The translations under genes and the position numbers were made by a program. Under the pieces are notes generated by a model. It saw only the letters and a program-made list of their open reading frames with translations. It was not told where the DNA came from and did not search any database. A stretch of DNA of 22,072 nucleotides from a bacterium (GTDB lineage: Bacteria > ARS69): NCBI GenBank assembly GCA_025774805.1, contig JALGZR010000093.1:1-22072 (forward strand), written 5' to 3'. The stretch's first letter is position 1. Every line of letters starts with the position of its first letter. Of the stretch, positions 12,984 to 19,089 are shown in pieces.

Positions 12984-13559
12984 GTGCATAGACCGTCCCC
13001 TTCCTCCGCCTCTTCATCGCCTTTTTCCGACGTCTCTTCCGTCGTCGCCGCGCTCCGGGGCGCACTCGGGCGGGCCTCGTGGCTCTCCGCCGCGCTCGTC
13101 CTGGCGTGCTGCGCCTCCTCGGGCGGCCTTTCGGGCGGCCCGTCCTTCGCGCCGGATCCGACGCTGGACAATCGGGATCTCGAGACGTCGCTGTCCGTGG
13201 AGCCCCCGACGATCCGAGAGGGCGAGACCGTCGAGCTCGTCCTCACGATCGAGAACACGAGCGACCGGACGGTGCAGCTCCGGTTCCCGCGGAAGAAACA
13301 GGTCGGGCTCGCGGTGTACGACGAGGCGGACCTGCTCTATTACACGGACACGTCGACGATCGCCATGCCGAGGGTCGTCACGCTGGGTCCGCTTCAGAGC
13401 TGGAGCCGGGATATCGAATGGGACGGCACGATCGACATCGGCCCCCGGGAAGAGCACCTTCCCCCCGGCGAGTACGAGCTCCAGGCCGGCCTCCACCTCT
13501 CGGGCGATGTCTACGTCAACCGCACGAATCGCGTTTCGATCGAAGTTCTCGCAAAGTGA
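12984..13559 (+). CDS. BsuPI-domain lipoprotein
   Basis: A 191-residue protein from GTG 12984, with GGGAGG at 12973-12978. The N-terminus is long; a hydrophobic stretch (about 31-41) ends in a lipobox-like LVLAC, making Cys42 (or Cys43) the likely lipidated residue. After a short linker, residues about 68-185 form one BsuPI-type immunoglobulin-like domain: SVEPPTIREGETVELVLTIEN, DRTVQLRFP, GLAVYDEADLLYYTD, and LPPGEYELQAGLH. BsuPI was first described as an intracellular protease inhibitor of Bacillus. In diderms the fold is widespread in exported proteins with no proven inhibition. It is transcribed away from the two DUF3857-transglutaminase proteins, so it could conceivably interact with them. 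That link is an inference from position only. Confidence 0.82.
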   Translation: MHRPSPSSASSSPFSDVSSVVAALRGALGRASWLSAALVLACCASSGGLSGGPSFAPDPTLDNRDLETSLSVEPPTIREGETVELVLTIENTSDRTVQLRFPRKKQVGLAVYDEADLLYYTDTSTIAMPRVVTLGPLQSWSRDIEWDGTIDIGPREEHLPPGEYELQAGLHLSGDVYVNRTNRVSIEVLAK

Positions 13560-13596
13560 CGTCGCTCGCCTGCCTGTCTCACCCGTCTCTGCCGCG

Positions 13597-13612
13597 GCGG
13601 CGGCTTCGCCGC
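13597..13612 (+). terminator. Strong hairpin downstream of the BsuPI lipoprotein gene
   Basis: GCGGCG (13597-13602) pairs perfectly with CGCCGC (13607-13612) around GCTT. It sits 37 bp after the stop at 13559 and between the pairing arms TCTCACC (13577-13583) and GGTGAGA (13630-13636) of the adjoining repeat element. There is no T-run. It could act as a structured 3' end for the convergent genes. Confidence 0.35.
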
Positions 13613-13649
13613 AGCCTCGCGACGAGCCTGGTGAGAAATGCGGGCTAGG
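13612..13649 (-). repeat. 38-bp dispersed repeat, copy 1, at a convergent gene junction
   Basis: This 38-bp stretch matches 17305-17342 at 36 of 38 positions. It contains the mini-hairpin CTCG-CGA-CGAG and the arms GCCTG / CGGGC (one G-T pair; the pair is perfect in copy 2). Its CTA at 13645-13647 is, on the minus strand, the TAG stop codon of the glycosyltransferase gene. GGTGAGA inside it pairs with TCTCACC at 13577-13583, giving a larger stem-loop. It reads as a mobile or regulatory intergenic element, possibly a 3'-end/terminator module. Confidence 0.75.
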
Positions 13650-14934
13650 CCGCGGCCTCTTCGGGAGCCACCTCATCGGCAACCGGGGGGATCGGCTCCA
13701 TCGCGGAGGAGGACACGTCGGCCACGCGTCCGTCCCGCTCCAGGACGTACGTCAGATCGCTCCAGGTGAGCCGGTGCCGTCGCAGGCTCGCGTTCGCGCA
13801 CGCGAGAAGACCGGCCCCGTGCATGAGAAAACTCGCGGGGATCGCGATTCTCGCGGGTGAGCGGTCGGGCACGAGAAAGCGGCACACGTCGCAGGATGCG
13901 AGCACGACGGCCGCGGCGATCAGGGCACTCCACCCCGCCCAGGGGCCGGAGGGCCAGGCCCCCTCGATCAGACGGTATCCGGCGTGGAAGCCGGCCAGCC
14001 AGAGCAGCGCGACGTTGAGGCCGATCTTCGTCCAGAGGATGCGGTAGCGCCACGGGAGGTAGACCTTCACGAAAAAGAACTGCCGCCCGAGCCACCCCAC
14101 GAAACGGCGGTAGTTGGGAATCGTCGACGTCGAGCTCACGAGAAGGCGGGGGACGGGAACGACGCGCAGACCCTTCTCCTTCACGACGCGGATCATGGAC
14201 GTGTCGTCGACGACGGTCCGACCCCAGACCTCGGCGAGGCGGAGCCGGCGGAAGGCCTCCGCGCGGATCGCCATGGAGCCTCCCCAAGTCGCGCCCCGGC
14301 AGACGAGCGTCGCCAGGGACTGCGAAGCCTCGGCCAGTCCGTGGAGCGCCTCCAGGATCCTTCCCTCCGTCGGGGCGACGCCGTGAAAGCTCGTGGAGGC
14401 GTCCCCCGCGCCCGTCGCCAGGGGGCGGACCATGTCCCGGAGCCAGTGCGTCCGGACGAGCAGGTCCCCGTCGCAAAACGCGAACACGTCGATCGGCCCG
14501 AAGCCCTCCTCGGCGTGCCGGATGCCCGCCAGAAGATTCTGGTTCTTCTGGGCGCGGCGGAGCCCCCGATCGATGACCCGGCCGGCGACGACGTGATCGC
14601 AGCGCTCGCGGGCGTCCGCGTCCGTGTCGAGCACCGCCCGGAGATCTCCCGCGGCGAGGTCTCCGTCCTCGGCGGCGGCCTCCGTGACGAACGTGATTCG
14701 ATACGTGCCCCGGTAGTCCTGATCCCGCAGGGCGCGCACCGTCTCCCGGAGCCGCGGCAGGGAGCCCTTCAGGCATACGATCACGTGTACGTTCGGCCAG
14801 GAGCGGGGCTCGGGACGGGATCTCTCGGAGCTCGACCACCGGCGGTAGCCGCGCAGGGCCCGGAACCAGAAGGCCAGGTCGATTCCGACGGCCGCGAGCG
14901 CGACTCCGACGGTGACCGGACTCAGGAGTTCCAA
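13645..14934 (-). CDS. Membrane glycosyltransferase, GT2/GT21 (ceramide glucosyltransferase/HpnI-like)
   Basis: A 429-residue protein from the TTG at 14934, preceded by GGAGGCGGAGAG. An N-terminal membrane helix (about 5-25) is followed by a GT-A fold domain: VHVIVCLKGSLPRLRETVRAL (first block), KNQNLLAGI, FAFCDGDLLV with the metal-binding D155-G-D157, GGSMAIRAEAFRRL, and VVDDTSM (D243/D244) as the acceptor/base region. Helices at about 295-320, 325-350 and 358-380 follow. This layout matches ceramide-glucosyltransferase-like enzymes that glycosylate lipids at the membrane. The family's (Q/R)xxRW motif appears as RFVGW (277-281), with Gly replacing Arg. The substrate cannot be named. Its stop codon lies inside the dispersed repeat. 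The broken radical SAM gene ends 66 bp upstream of its start. Confidence 0.85.
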   Translation of the reverse strand: MELLSPVTVGVALAAVGIDLAFWFRALRGYRRWSSSERSRPEPRSWPNVHVIVCLKGSLPRLRETVRALRDQDYRGTYRITFVTEAAAEDGDLAAGDLRAVLDTDADARERCDHVVAGRVIDRGLRRAQKNQNLLAGIRHAEEGFGPIDVFAFCDGDLLVRTHWLRDMVRPLATGAGDASTSFHGVAPTEGRILEALHGLAEASQSLATLVCRGATWGGSMAIRAEAFRRLRLAEVWGRTVVDDTSMIRVVKEKGLRVVPVPRLLVSSTSTIPNYRRFVGWLGRQFFFVKVYLPWRYRILWTKIGLNVALLWLAGFHAGYRLIEGAWPSGPWAGWSALIAAAVVLASCDVCRFLVPDRSPARIAIPASFLMHGAGLLACANASLRRHRLTWSDLTYVLERDGRVADVSSSAMEPIPPVADEVAPEEAAA

Positions 14935-15000
14935 GATCGCTCTCCGCCTCCCTGGGAGCCGTCGGGCCGAGCGCGTCCGCCCGCCCCCGTCAGCCCTTCT

Positions 15001-16183
15001 CTACCAACCCATCAAACCGCAGCATCTCGAGCAGATGGGCATGAGCCCCTCCTGCTTGAGGCTGTTCCGGAATCGTCGGTACTTCCCGTTGTTCCAGATC
15101 GTGAGCAGGTCGTCGTCCTGGATGTTCCCGCAGACGTAGTCGGGGTAGTCGCGGCAGGTCGCCACGTCCCCGTTGGGCATGATCTCGGTGACGATCCAGG
15201 GCTGGATGCAGTGGCCGTAACCGAATCGCTTGGCTTGGGCATGATCTCGGTGACGATCCAGGGCTGGATGCAGTGGCCGTAACCGAATCGCTTGGCTGCG
15301 TCGGCGTAATACTCCGGGATCTGCTCGATCTCGAGATCGGGGATGAAGAGCACGGGGTAGGGCCAGCGCCGCGATCGGATGGATCGCACGTCCTCCATCA
15401 GCCGCCGATCGTCGAGGCCGGAGAAAAAGAGATATCCCTTCCACGCTCTCGGGTCGACTCCGAATCGCCGCTTCATCTCCTCGGTGTGGCGACGCCCGTT
15501 CTCCTCGTCCGTGAACCAGGAGTAGTAATAGGTGAGCAGATCGATTCCCTTGCCGATGCCCCACTCGGCGATCTCCTCGAGATGCCCGACGTTGTCCCGG
15601 GAGATCGTCGGATCTCGTTGTGCACCGGTCCGATCCCGTCGACCGAAAGCATGAGCATGTCGACGCCCGCACCCACGAGACGATCGGCGGTCTTCGCCAT
15701 GAGGGTGCCGTTCGTGACGACGCCGACGATTCCGCCCCGCTCCTTCATGTGCTCCATGAGGGGCATCAGATCGGGGTAGAGGTACGGCTCGCCTCCCCAG
15801 ATGTAGTAGAAGGGACGGAGGTGGGCGAGCTGATCGACCATGCGACGGTACGTCCCGGACGGAACGATCTCCCGGAGCTCAGCTCCGGGACGGTCGTGGT
15901 TGTATCCCGTGTCTCCCCACTGGCCGCACGTCTTGCACCGGAGATTGCACGTGTTCACGATCTTGAGGCTGACCTGCTGGAGACGGCGGCTCTCTCCGTC
16001 GAGGAAGCGCCGGTCCATCCGGGCGAAGACGTGCTTGGCGGCCTCGGCCCGGGCGACCCGCCAGAAGAGGTCCGGGGTCCGGAGAAGAACGGAGGAGAGG
16101 TGGCGGACCGGGATTCGGCTGTTGCGCCGGCCCCCCGGCTCGCGGGCGGGGATCTCCCGGGTGGGCGGTTCGGTTGCGGCCAA
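15001..16183 (-). pseudogene. Radical SAM/SPASM protein, disrupted by two frameshifts
   Basis: Reads from TTG 16183 (GAGGTGA just upstream) in three frames. Frame 1 (16183 to about 15615) encodes the radical SAM part with the 4Fe-4S motif NTCNLRCKTCGQWG (C79, C83, C86), the WGGEPYLYPDL loop and MLMLSVDGIGPVHNE. Near 15610-15616 the sense shifts by one base: the next frame gives DPTISRDNVGHLEEIAEWG, GIDLLTYYYSWFTDEENG and YLFFSGLDDRRLM. A 62-bp tandem duplication (15173-15296) then shifts it again, and the third frame gives the SPASM end: NGDVATCRDYPDYVCGNI, then ICSRCCGLMGW and TAG. With one copy removed and one base added the gene would be about 370 codons. The shifts do not compensate, so no full protein is made unless these are sequencing or assembly errors. 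A peptide- or sugar-modifying role is possible, but the substrate is unknown. Confidence 0.82.
15173..15296. repeat. Exact 62-bp tandem duplication inside the radical SAM gene
   Basis: Bases 15173-15234 are repeated without a mismatch at 15235-15296. Each copy encodes, on the minus strand, the segment KRFGYGHCIQPWIVTEIMP. Sixty-two is not a multiple of three, so the duplication causes a frameshift. The lack of any divergence indicates a very recent event or an assembly artefact. Confidence 0.97.
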
Positions 16184-16317
16184 CGATCACCTCGGGCGTG
16201 GCCGGACGGGGCTCGGATGGATTACTGATCAGGATTGGACCCGGGGATGGGATTCGAGTCAAGACTGGAGAATGCGAGCGGCCGATCCGCCTTGCCTCCC
16301 TTCCTCCGGCTCGGGGT

Positions 16318-16331
16318 GGGGGCTGGCCCCC
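16318..16331. other. GC hairpin in the divergent intergenic region
   Basis: GGGGG (16318-16322) pairs with CCCCC (16327-16331) around CTGG. The 272-bp gap 16184-16455 between the minus-strand radical SAM gene and the plus-strand lipoprotein gene holds no gene. Closer to the lipoprotein start, ATCCG recurs at 16390, 16413, 16425 and 16436. No clear promoter consensus was identified. Confidence 0.25.
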
Positions 16332-16455
16332 GGGTCGGCGGCGGCGAAGGGACCGGGACGGGTCCGAAGAGCGAGGAATGGCGGGCTCAATCCGCTCGGC
16401 GTCACGGTCGATATCCGTGGAGAAATCCGTCCACTATCCGCGGAGGCCTCCACCC

Positions 16456-17274
16456 ATGTTGTCTCGAAGAATTCAGATTCTCCTCACCCTGGCGGTGACG
16501 TGCGGGCTCGCGCTCTCCTTCGCCATCGGCTGCGACCCGAAGCTCACCGGCGAGGGGGGTGACGGCTCGGGCACCGGCGACGGGGGAGGAGACGGCGGCA
16601 CCCTCGAGCCCTCCACCGAGGCCATCGTCGTGGGAGCCGTGCTCGCGCTTCACATGGAGCTCCTCAACGCCGGCCACACCGTGGCCGCGGAGTTCGACAC
16701 GATCACGGCGAGCCCCCTGCCCCGGACGATGTTCACGACCGACTGCGTGACCATGACCGAGATCGAACCCCTCGAGCCGCGCTGGCAGGCCGAGATGGTC
16801 GACTGCATCGACGGCCGGGGAACGGTGCACTCGGGCGGCGGGGTTTTCCGCCGCGACGGCACGATGGACGGGTACACGTTCTTCCCGGCCACGCCCGCCC
16901 AGGACATGATCCGCGCCGACAACACGGAGGATCCCTCCCTGAGCCACACGTACAGTCAGGGGACGTTCTGGTTCGTCTACGATCGGGGCGGCGCCAACGA
17001 GATCACCGGGATCCGCATCGGGAACTACCTCCGCCACATGCTGCTGACGCAGACGGCGAGCTTCTCGTACGTCGACGTGCTCTTCCACGGCGCTCCGGGC
17101 AGCGTCGAGCAGTGGCCGACCTCGGGGACGATCCAGGGGTCTTGGGACGGTGTGGGACTCTTCGAGGCGACCTTCACCGGTGGACCCGTCGCTCACATGG
17201 TGATCCAGAGAACCGACTACGAGGTCGATCTGCGCACCGGGGACGTCACTCTGGAGGACTCCTCGATCCTCTAG
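16456..17274 (+). CDS. Hypothetical lipoprotein
   Basis: ATG 16456 was chosen because GGAGG (16442-16446) precedes it and a lipoprotein signal follows directly (RRIQILLTLAVTCGLALSFAIGC, Cys26 as the lipidation site). The upstream in-frame extension is Arg-rich and unconvincing. The mature N-terminus has a flexible Gly/Asp linker (about 32-49, GEGGDGSGTGDGGGDGG). The remaining about 220 residues look beta-rich: TTDCVTMTEIEP, MVDCIDGRGTVHSGGGVFRRDG, GTFWFVYDRGG, SFSYVDVLFHG and YEVDLRTGDVTLED. The two Cys (in TTDC and MVDC) could form a disulfide. I recognise no family. The protein is likely exported and anchored to a membrane. It is convergent with the next minus-strand lipoprotein gene, separated by the second dispersed repeat. 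Confidence 0.8.
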   Translation: MLSRRIQILLTLAVTCGLALSFAIGCDPKLTGEGGDGSGTGDGGGDGGTLEPSTEAIVVGAVLALHMELLNAGHTVAAEFDTITASPLPRTMFTTDCVTMTEIEPLEPRWQAEMVDCIDGRGTVHSGGGVFRRDGTMDGYTFFPATPAQDMIRADNTEDPSLSHTYSQGTFWFVYDRGGANEITGIRIGNYLRHMLLTQTASFSYVDVLFHGAPGSVEQWPTSGTIQGSWDGVGLFEATFTGGPVAHMVIQRTDYEVDLRTGDVTLEDSSIL

Positions 17275-17281
17275 CCTTTAA

Positions 17282-17330
17282 TTCTCACCAGACACGACGA
17301 TCCACAGCCTCGCGACGAGCCTGGTGAGAA
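17282..17330. terminator. Stem-loop between convergent lipoprotein genes
   Basis: TTCTCACCAG (17282-17291) is a perfect 10-bp inverted repeat of CTGGTGAGAA (17321-17330), with a 29-nt loop that holds the smaller hairpin CTCG-CGA-CGAG (17309-17319). It begins 7 bp after the stop of the plus-strand lipoprotein gene and ends 8 bp before the stop of the minus-strand one, the expected place for a bidirectional terminator. It has no strong T-run. Confidence 0.5.
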
Positions 17331-17342
17331 ACGCAGGCTAGG
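17305..17342 (-). repeat. 38-bp dispersed repeat, copy 2, at a convergent gene junction
   Basis: Differs from 13612-13649 at two of 38 positions. Arms GCCTG (17319-17323) and CAGGC (17334-17338) pair perfectly here; copy 1 keeps the pairing through a G-T pair. Its CTA at 17338-17340 is the TAG stop codon of the minus-strand lipoprotein gene, exactly as copy 1 supplies the stop of the glycosyltransferase gene. The upstream arm TTCTCACCAG lies outside the shared 38 bp. Confidence 0.75.
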
Positions 17343-18111
17343 GAAAGGGGTAGAGCACGGGCCCGGGGACCGGGATCTCCGGGTCCCCCAGACGCTGCCC
17401 CGTGACCGGGTCGAGATAGAACCGCACCGTGGACCACCACACCGGGCTCGTCGAGTCCTCGATCGGGCCCTCGACGAGGAAGTCGACGCGCCAGGCGGCC
17501 TCCTCGGGCAGGATCTGGTTCGCGGCGTCGAATTCCGGGTAGACCGGTTTGGTGGAGATCCGGGGGGCGAAGAACTCGGGGATCCGAATGATCTGCCCGG
17601 GGTTCTGCTCGTTCCAGTCCTCGGCCTCATTGATCGCGAAGGCAACCGCCTCGCGGGAGTCGAGGACTTCCTCGAAGCCGTCGATCAAGATGACCGGCGG
17701 ATCCACGGTCCGCTCTCCCTTCCAGGGCAACCCCGAGAAGAGATGCACCTTGAGCTCCCGCGTGGTGAAGCCGTCCCGGGCGTGGAAGATGAACGTGTGG
17801 TTTCGCGCTCTTCCCTCGGCGTCGGTGACGGTGAACCCGCCTCCCATCCCGGTGAGGAACGCGTTCTCCCTCCACCCCCGCGCCACCTTCTCCGCGAGGG
17901 GAAGGGCCTCCTTGCACGTGGCGGGAAACAGCACGGCCTCCTCGGTGAGCTCGAACGGCGTGGAGCTCGTGAGGCAGCCCGCGACGAGCGGTGCCATCAG
18001 CGCCACCACGGCTCCGAGCGCCGGCCGCGGCAGAGGCCGCTGAGGAATCCGGGCCGGGACCACGGCTCGGCGCCGGGCGGCGCCTCCCGCCGGGATCGGT
18101 CTCAGATCCAT
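17338..18111 (-). CDS. Hypothetical lipoprotein
   Basis: A 257-residue protein from ATG 18111, preceded by GAGGGTGGGG. The basic N-terminus (ARRRAVVPARIPQR) leads to a hydrophobic stretch and a lipobox LVAGC with Cys46. The N-region is longer than usual, so an internal GTG start is possible. The mature part mixes alpha and beta: PATCKEALPLAEKVARGW, GFTVTDAEGRARNHTFIFHA, HLFSGLPWKGERTVDPPVIL, then ILPEEAAWRVDFLVEG and WWSTVRFYLDPVTGQRLGDPE. The last part looks like a short PepSY-like or two-strand motif, but I recognise no family. The start overlaps the end of the upstream beta-barrel gene by 10 bp, so the two are likely translated together and may act in one outer-membrane assembly. Its stop lies in the dispersed repeat. 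Confidence 0.75.
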   Translation of the reverse strand: MDLRPIPAGGAARRRAVVPARIPQRPLPRPALGAVVALMAPLVAGCLTSSTPFELTEEAVLFPATCKEALPLAEKVARGWRENAFLTGMGGGFTVTDAEGRARNHTFIFHARDGFTTRELKVHLFSGLPWKGERTVDPPVILIDGFEEVLDSREAVAFAINEAEDWNEQNPGQIIRIPEFFAPRISTKPVYPEFDAANQILPEEAAWRVDFLVEGPIEDSTSPVWWSTVRFYLDPVTGQRLGDPEIPVPGPVLYPFP

Positions 18112-18950
18112 CGAAGCCCCACCCTCAGCCCGAATCCCATGAGGTCGATGTCCCGACTTCCGGGGAAGAACTCGTTCTCCACCGTCGCCTCCGTGGCGTC
18201 CAGCGTCGTCGACCCGGCCCGGAAGAAGGCCTCGAGATAGAGCGTCATCTGCGTGTCGGTGACCCAGTCGAGCTCCGCGCCCCCCTCGAATCCGAGGCCC
18301 ACTCCGCGCGAGTCGTGCGTGCTGACCTCCTCCACCGCAGTGTCCCCGATCCGGACGAGGATCTCGTCCTCCGCTCCCAGAGGCGCGATCAGCAGCCCAC
18401 CGAGAAACACGAGGCGCACCTCCCGATAAAAGAGTGCCCGCCCCGCCCCCACGGTGAAGAGGAGCGGGCGCGTCCGGATCTCGGTCGCATAGGAGATCGA
18501 CACGGGAGTGCGCACCCGACCACCGAGGATCCCGATGTACTGCCGGTCGCGGCGATCCCAGGACAGGCGCGTCCACTCGGTGAGGGCCCGGATCAACCAC
18601 CCGCGGCTGAGACGGTACTGGATCTCGACCATGTAACCGTAGGTCGCTTCGTACTCGGAGGAGTCGAACGTGAAGTCGTCCTCGGCGAGCAGCGCCCCGC
18701 GATGGTCCTGGAGGTCTTCGAGGGAGGCGAGAGTCCAGTACTGGAACCCACCTCCGATTCCCAGCGTGAGGCGGCCGAAGTAGTTGGAGACCGGCCTCTT
18801 CTTCTCGAAGACGCTGGCCGGCTGATCCGCGGCCGCGGGGGGCGGAAGAAGGGCGATCCCGAGGACGATGCCGGCGGCGAGCAGGAGGCGGGGCGGCGAG
18901 GGGCGAATCCGGGGTTCCCAACCGCCGCGGGGACGGGTGTCGATGGTCAA
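18102..18950 (-). CDS. Putative outer-membrane beta-barrel protein
   Basis: The start was set at TTG 18950, because GGAGGG lies 4 bp upstream on the minus strand and a signal peptide follows (RLLLAAGIVLGIALLPPPAAA, cleavage near residue 41). The longer frame to 19112 would run into the divergent MscS gene. The 282-residue product has alternating strands with aromatic girdles: YFGRLTLGIGGGFQYWTLAS, ATYGYMVEIQYRLSRGW, SISYATEIRTRPLLFTVGAG, EVRLVFLGGLLIAPLG, VGLGFEGGAELDW and TLYLEAFFRAGS. It ends MGFGLRVGLRWI, typical of small 8-10-strand outer-membrane barrels (OmpW/OmpA-barrel-like size), although the last residue is Ile with Trp next to it. The specific family is not recognised. Its end overlaps the downstream lipoprotein gene. 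Confidence 0.8.
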   Translation of the reverse strand: MTIDTRPRGGWEPRIRPSPPRLLLAAGIVLGIALLPPPAAADQPASVFEKKRPVSNYFGRLTLGIGGGFQYWTLASLEDLQDHRGALLAEDDFTFDSSEYEATYGYMVEIQYRLSRGWLIRALTEWTRLSWDRRDRQYIGILGGRVRTPVSISYATEIRTRPLLFTVGAGRALFYREVRLVFLGGLLIAPLGAEDEILVRIGDTAVEEVSTHDSRGVGLGFEGGAELDWVTDTQMTLYLEAFFRAGSTTLDATEATVENEFFPGSRDIDLMGFGLRVGLRWI

Positions 18951-19089
18951 AGGACCCTCCGAGACGACTTTTTTCCACCATGCGGGGCCTCGGGCAATCC
19001 TGCAAGGGGTGTGATGGGCTTGACTCGGGTCCCGTTCCCCTCTAGGAAGTCGGAAGGCGGGTCTCCGAAGTGACGCCGGGAGGGTCCCG

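Follow-up and report, generated by a model that had tools for sequence, protein, structure and literature searches.

Two nearly identical 38-bp sequences, located at 13612-13649 and 17305-17342 of a 22,072-nt bacterial contig (JALGZR010000093.1; this whole stretch is referred to below as the window), are with a probability of roughly 0.87 ends of two small elements, both belonging to a high-copy family of miniature inverted-repeat transposable elements (MITEs) that is most likely moved in trans by a transposase of the IS1380 family and inserts into CTAG with duplication of these 4 bp. The 38-mer makes up just one end of a longer element, the original outline of the unit having been too small. 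Such a family, with movement most likely due to an IS1380-type enzyme, is of a known kind; what is unexpected is the landing logic that ties CTAG to stop codons, together with a strand-polar hairpin found across phyla.

The starting point was a sequence-only reading of the window, whose basic observations are borne out. The two sites (copies 1 and 2) agree at 36 of 38 positions, a repeat search lengthens the matching stretch to 41 nt (93%), and a 23-nt core pattern, allowed at most three mismatches, finds exactly these two sites in the window and none in each of 100 shuffles. Gene coordinates confirm that the CTA of the repeat is the TAG stop codon of the minus-strand gene at both sites. The distant arm proposed to pair with GGTGAGA is also real: it is the opposite terminal inverted repeat (TIR) of the same element. 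The local GCCTG/CRGGC hairpin noted there does not represent the main structure: the bases beside GGTGAG vary among copies, and the true pairing runs end to end. Both window copies are internally shortened derivatives of a 182-bp palindromic MITE.

The extent of this family is readily apparent from a search of the source genome (5.1 Mb in 284 contigs) with an 18-nt core of the element end at up to three mismatches, which returned 259 + 278 = 537 ends, compared with 2 + 5 = 7 for the reversed control pattern. The TIR comprises 15 bp, CCYGCRTTTCTCACC, and is flanked by CTAG. Ends pair head to head in inverted orientation, with dominant discrete length classes of 55, 65-84 and 181-182 bp; as is usual for MITEs, the elements are short (below ~300 bp), non-coding and present in many copies. 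The 182-bp consensus is a near-complete palindrome (predicted -139.8 kcal/mol) with two distinct ends, A (CTCGTCGCGAGG) and B (CTGCTGCGGCAGCGG), and 29 aligned copies give a mean column identity of 92%. Across 50 pairs of ends from the source genome and 75 from foreign genomes, the conserved sequence ends precisely at the C of CTAG on either side, with no conservation of the next base outward; CTAG flanks both sides in 17 of the 50 own and 39 of the 75 foreign pairs. Adjoining elements share a single CTAG at two loci (L032, L233) and at a third (L237) with one changed TIR base. Such sharp edges and shared tetranucleotides are the appearance that would be expected of a transposon with CTAG as both target and duplication. 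Rfam covariance models gave no match to any family.

The link to IS1380 is provided by autonomous insertion sequences (ISs) with the same termini. In foreign genomes, intact PF13701 transposase genes of the IS1380 family (L192, L193, L196, L197) lie between TIRs of the MITE sequence, with CTAG or CTAA flanks, and one-ended IS1380 copies with a MITE-type TIR occur at L194, L195 and L199. A PF13701 match was obtained in 30 of 48 foreign genomes carrying the TIR 19-mer and in 3 of 14 controls, the latter being unmatched for genome type. The annotated IS1380-family protein WP_034018616.1 lies in an element whose ends read CTAG followed by CCCGCATTTCTCACA (copies L251/L253). This element is identical over 1663/1663 nt, both CTAG flanks included, at unrelated sites in two genera, on Pseudomonas putida pKF715A and on a Stutzerimonas zhaodongensis megaplasmid. 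When the flanks of the second copy are joined via one CTAG, they match an empty site on S. stutzeri pZDHY95-VIM-2 at 94.1% over all 304 nt (L253/L256); because this empty site holds a single CTAG, the IS duplicates CTAG as a 4-bp target. The search for an empty site of L251 found none, the left flank of this copy being the end of another IS. From the TIR and flanks that the MITE has in common with this IS, we infer that it probably duplicates CTAG as well. The two differ in other respects: the ISs carry a transposase, whereas the MITE is 182-186 bp long, has no transposase gene, shares only 20-24 bp of TIR and has a core unrelated to the IS interior.

The TIR identity to IS1380-family ISs supports the earlier suggestion that the repeat terminates a small non-autonomous mobile element, and turns what had been offered as an analogy to IS1380-like termini into a sequence match. 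The part of that analogy concerning TTAA beside copy 2 does not stand: this tetranucleotide is part of the degenerate left TIR of that copy rather than a target duplication. A TTAA target of the piggyBac type is rejected on the same ground and by the CTAG or CTAA flanks of the foreign IS copies. As a separate observation, variant TIRs (CGTGAGATATCCGGG, GGTGAGAAATCCAGG, GGTGCAATATGCGGG; L081:6040-6224, L197, L193, L207) agree between the two ends of one element, which suggests transposase subtypes, each with its own MITEs.

The relationship between the element and stop codons was assessed over 1.15 Mb of the 5.1 Mb, with genes called by a home-made codon-usage caller. CTAG is rare here: 284 occurrences compare with ~3449 expected from base composition, a ~12-fold depletion in a GC-rich genome. 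These 284 include 114 at stop codons and 91, about a third, at element ends; the 193 away from element ends comprise 72 at stops, 55 within genes and an intergenic remainder. At 54 of 215 element ends the edge coincides exactly with the stop of the adjacent gene; just two genes read past it into the element. Stops at element edges are 53 TAG to 2 TGA, compared with 9 TAG, 18 TGA and 1 TAA in genes ending 1-60 nt before elements (Fisher p = 4e-10). In the source genome FtsZ ends on an element, and it ends at the same residue, LETPTFLRKQMD followed by the stop, in relatives without one; TrpS, also ending on an element here, ends within about three residues in element-free relatives. In the relative G001, what we take from reading to be the same genes downstream of FtsZ and TrpS (RecG-like and MetH-like) follow with no element between. 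The stop positions are thereby accounted for: CTAG is rare in this genome and often holds TAG, and duplication of CTAG would preserve the stop, so that the element can sit on a TAG stop without a change in the protein; the repeat "supplies" the stop, as had been proposed, only insofar as TAG forms part of the CTAG target that is duplicated. Among the ends tested in foreign genomes, 23 likewise coincide exactly with stops of open reading frames (ORFs), a rough count given the long shadow frames in GC-rich DNA. Separately, an offset of precisely 10 nt from gene end to the downstream TIR TAG is seen for six genes of the source genome, more than at neighbouring offsets, possibly by chance.

These observations are consistent with the following mechanism. 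A DDE transposase of the IS1380 family, supplied from elsewhere, would move the MITE in trans into CTAG, duplicating the tetranucleotide and rebuilding the site. About a third of element-free CTAG sites are TAG stops (nnC TAG), and insertion there would leave CTAG, and with it a stop, at each edge; convergent genes overlapping in one CTAG would retain both stops, as seems to have happened at copy 2, where the plus-strand gene stops in the left CTAG and the minus-strand gene in the right. Insertions within genes would presumably be purged, and stop placement would reflect target choice and purifying selection and not a host function. The outcome would be an element with edges that resemble stop codons. 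If in-gene insertions are lost, about half of the leftover CTAG sites are stops, which matches the 11 elements with at least one stop among the 21 that retain CTAG intact at both flanks; no added function is needed for this agreement, which is a consistency check and not a test.

The sequence-only reading had also considered a lineage-specific bidirectional terminator, and more broadly the repeat could be a host 3'-end element, that is, a terminator or mRNA-stabilising hairpin kept for ending convergent transcripts. The hairpin is indeed very stable, and the element occupies 37 of 128 convergent junctions (29%) against 64 of 633 codirectional ones (10%; p = 2e-7). Targeting and purging alone predict this enrichment; 19% of divergent junctions also hold an element. 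T-tract terminator calling gives nothing at copy 1, and its sole call at copy 2 overlaps only its left edge, with a stem drawn from flanking gene sequence. Orientation shows no significant bias: for full-length elements of the source genome, 13 genes run into the A end and 15 into the B end, the A:B ratio at exact stops is 9:2 (p = 0.065), and foreign elements give 5:7. A terminator role thus appears unsupported, because no T-tract call falls within the window elements and no significant orientation bias is seen. The boundaries are of transposon type, with the TIRs of IS1380, and the element is nearly absent from the host's own family, where orthologous junctions lack it. We regard a host 3'-end element as very improbable.

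A related possibility is that the element creates the stop, inserting near gene ends that lacked a CTAG and bringing its own TAG. In its favour, the FtsZ and TrpS orthologues of element-free relatives stop at TGA, and the CTAG flank could belong to the TIR. The empty site of the matching IS already has a single CTAG, however, and abutting elements share one; moreover, random insertion should produce read-in frames in two of three phases, whereas 2 such cases were found against 54 exact stops. The base preceding the stop is a weak test: C precedes TAG, element genes included, in 115 of 284 cases (40%), about as often as it precedes TGA (38%), which is what CTAG stops already in place would predict. 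Creation of the stop by the element is judged very unlikely. REP/BIME-type repeats moved by RAYT, a Y1 transposase, resemble the present family in that small palindromes occur by the hundred, as singles and as inverted pairs, with many solitary ends and a conserved tetranucleotide at the foot. No Y1_Tnp domain, and hence no RAYT match, was found in the genome, the incomplete assembly being a small loophole; the TIRs match those of DDE-type IS1380 elements, and the matching IS makes a 4-bp duplication. A RAYT-driven origin is therefore extremely improbable.

Several observations weigh against movement of the MITE by an IS1380-type transposase with CTAG duplication. About 80 of 159 detected units have one recognisable end only. 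Pairs of the source genome with other tetramers at their flanks gave direct repeats in 0 of 33 cases, which fits decay and not recent insertion, and foreign pairs in 3 of 36; as a test of the duplication both counts are uninformative, since most such tetramers are decayed CTAG. CTAG is its own reverse complement, so that for elements flanked by it on both sides a duplication is indistinguishable from an extension of the TIR. The base-resolution empty site was obtained for the IS and none for the MITE. Among the foreign TIR-bearing genomes, 18 of 48 yielded no PF13701 match, and the 96%-complete source assembly yielded no intact partner transposase: its sole PF13701 match is a decayed C-terminal fragment of IS1380 type (L190, G000:C17:1747-2085), with no family TIR adjoining.

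In contrast to the lineage-specific element first envisaged, the family is spread over many phyla and nearly absent from the source genome's own family. A covariance model, R1, was built exclusively from 14 foreign copies (other phyla); it nevertheless finds the family of the source genome, with up to 99 bits at full length, including both window copies. In the own-phylum comparison (five species of one family), R1 gives 119 matches in the source genome, two overlapping strand matches at one place in G004 and none in the other three relatives. Stretches with exact matches number at least 115; those listed are from Gamma-, Alpha- and Deltaproteobacteria, Acidobacteria, Planctomycetes, Verrucomicrobia, Gemmatimonadetes, Nitrospira, Actinomycetota and Eisenbacteria. 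Many of these records are metagenome-assembled genomes, and single occurrences could be binning errors; the breadth could not. The culturable species Inquilinus limosus and Tamilnaduibacter salinus are among the carriers of the TIR. Between phyla, full-length alignment of 184-186-bp elements gives 68-76% identity. R1 matches 44 of 50 foreign genomes, all preselected for the TIR, a figure that is not an estimate of prevalence, and some of the weaker matches may rest on the TIR alone. One 184-bp element used as a query found no relative in plasmid and phage collections. Two further observations concern the foreign elements. A second length class of 246-251 bp with the same TIRs (L093, L096, L104, L107, L122, L136, L151, L161, L168 and others), present in gammaproteobacterial and other genomes, is apparently a separate MITE family with ends in common. 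In Deltaproteobacteria VGTG (L078, L084, L139, L156, L185, L188), many ~99% identical 186-bp copies have CTAG on both sides, which suggests recent amplification.

The predicted hairpin is itself conserved. In the foreign alignment A6, compensatory changes affect 39 of the 60 predicted pairs of the 184-nt hairpin, and 120 cells are changed on both sides, compared with 40.3 after shuffling and 24-41 in slid controls. This covariation extends through the internal stem beyond the TIRs; palindrome correction or co-specific TIRs could also produce it. Taken together, the sequence-only reading had named the outcomes that would count against it, namely two copies only, no enrichment at gene ends and no covariation, and the opposite was found in all three respects. 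Furthermore, the strand beginning with the A end is predicted to fold more stably in 29 of 29 own and 14 of 14 foreign copies, relative to a standard deviation of 9.6 kcal/mol for the between-strand difference in random 182-mers of the source genome; because the copies share descent, the 43/43 preference does not represent 43 independent events. The A-first predicted structure contains 101 G-U against 10 A-C cells, a ratio partly biased by the choice of structure, and pairs predicted on both strands retain an excess of 14:4. Most naturally, this would reflect selection for a hairpin, in RNA or in single-stranded DNA; template switching that corrects the palindrome, or mutation biased by strand, could also play a part. 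On these structure predictions, the 184-nt hairpin might be a functional RNA or folded single-stranded DNA of the element, with one polarity across several phyla and selected for host tolerability or mobility, instead of a passive IS deletion derivative; we advance this tentatively and consider it rather unlikely.

The features of the two window copies and of their flanking genes are collected in Table 1. Between the copies, the minus-strand region 15001-16183, which has broken ORFs on that strand, contains a perfect 62-bp tandem duplication (15173-15234/15235-15296). Since 62 is not a multiple of 3, the duplication shifts the frame; it is either a real mutation or an assembly error.

Table 1. 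Coordinates of the MITE copies, their repeats and CTAG flanks, and the adjoining genes in the window.
Feature	Position	Strand	Description and basis
MITE copy 1	13565..13648	-	84 bp; A end at right; R1 55.9 bits, E 6.5e-14, minus orientation; TIR pairing
Copy 1 left flank tetramer	13565..13568		decayed CTAG, reads CTCG; sequence
Copy 1 left TIR	13569..13583		CCTGCCTGTCTCACC; inverted partner of 13630-13644; sequence
Copy 1 right TIR	13630..13644		GGTGAGAAATGCGGG; pattern match
Copy 1 right CTAG flank	13645..13648		minus-strand gene 13645-14934 has its TAG stop in this CTA (13645-13647)
MITE copy 2	17271..17341	-	71-bp derivative; A end at right; R1 34.7 bits, E 7.4e-8; TIR pairing
Copy 2 left CTAG flank	17271..17274		plus-strand gene 16456-17274 has its stop in this TAG (17272-17274)
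Copy 2 left TIR, degenerate	17275..17289		CCTTTAATTCTCACC; contains TTAA (17278-17281); sequence
Copy 2 right TIR	17323..17337		GGTGAGAAACGCAGG; pattern match
Copy 2 right CTAG flank	17338..17341		minus-strand gene with its end at 17338 has its TAG stop in this CTA (17338-17340)
Gene upstream of copy 1, BsuPI-type domain	12984..13559	+	PF12690; TGA end 5 nt before the element
Gene, glycosyltransferase family 2/21-like	13645..14934	-	PF13506, PF13641
Gene, lipoprotein-like N-terminus	16456..17274	+	no Pfam match; stop within copy 2 left CTAG
ORF, start uncertain	17338..19005	-	no Pfam match; stop within copy 2 right CTAG

Several described systems share part of these properties. ISPa33, of the IS1380 family, has inverted repeats of 16/16 and a 4-bp direct repeat (PMC4133298). 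RUP of Streptococcus pneumoniae, a MITE paired with IS630-Spn1 that uses a TA target and gives stem-loop transcripts, is similarly small and intergenic, exceeds 100 copies, has TIRs matching a resident IS family and shows a short target duplication of the kind that is probable here (PMC2229807); it differs in its TA target, its IS630 partner and its restriction to one species, whereas the present family uses CTAG, occurs in many phyla and often lies on stop codons. ERIC/IRU and Correia/NEMIS elements are likewise intergenic, 100-200 bp long, with TIRs and a long RNA hairpin (PMC2229807), but have TA termini and other TIRs. TIME elements, which are Tn3-derived MITEs, are widespread, miniature, of conserved length, moved in trans and predicted to form strong RNA hairpins; they differ in their Tn3 TIRs, 5-6 bp duplications and low copy number (PMC4133298). 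In a literature search whose coverage lay outside ISfinder and most subscription journals, no paper linked IS1380 to a CTAG target, and neither landing on stop codons nor a cross-phylum strand-polar hairpin was described; queries with the TIR strings returned unrelated matches only. The present MITE family, which spans phyla, is apparently undescribed.

The findings offer a simple, testable reason for the precise placement of some MITEs at stop codons: a stop lies within the target tetranucleotide, and the duplication regenerates it. CTAG-containing stops are, in such genomes, near-neutral landing pads. In practical terms, these repeats can break up assemblies and can pass for regulatory 3' elements. 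Elements of this kind are normally seen as short-lived, lineage-specific debris, and it is unusual for such a family to retain, across phyla, its length, its types of end and a hairpin that covaries and is strand-polar.

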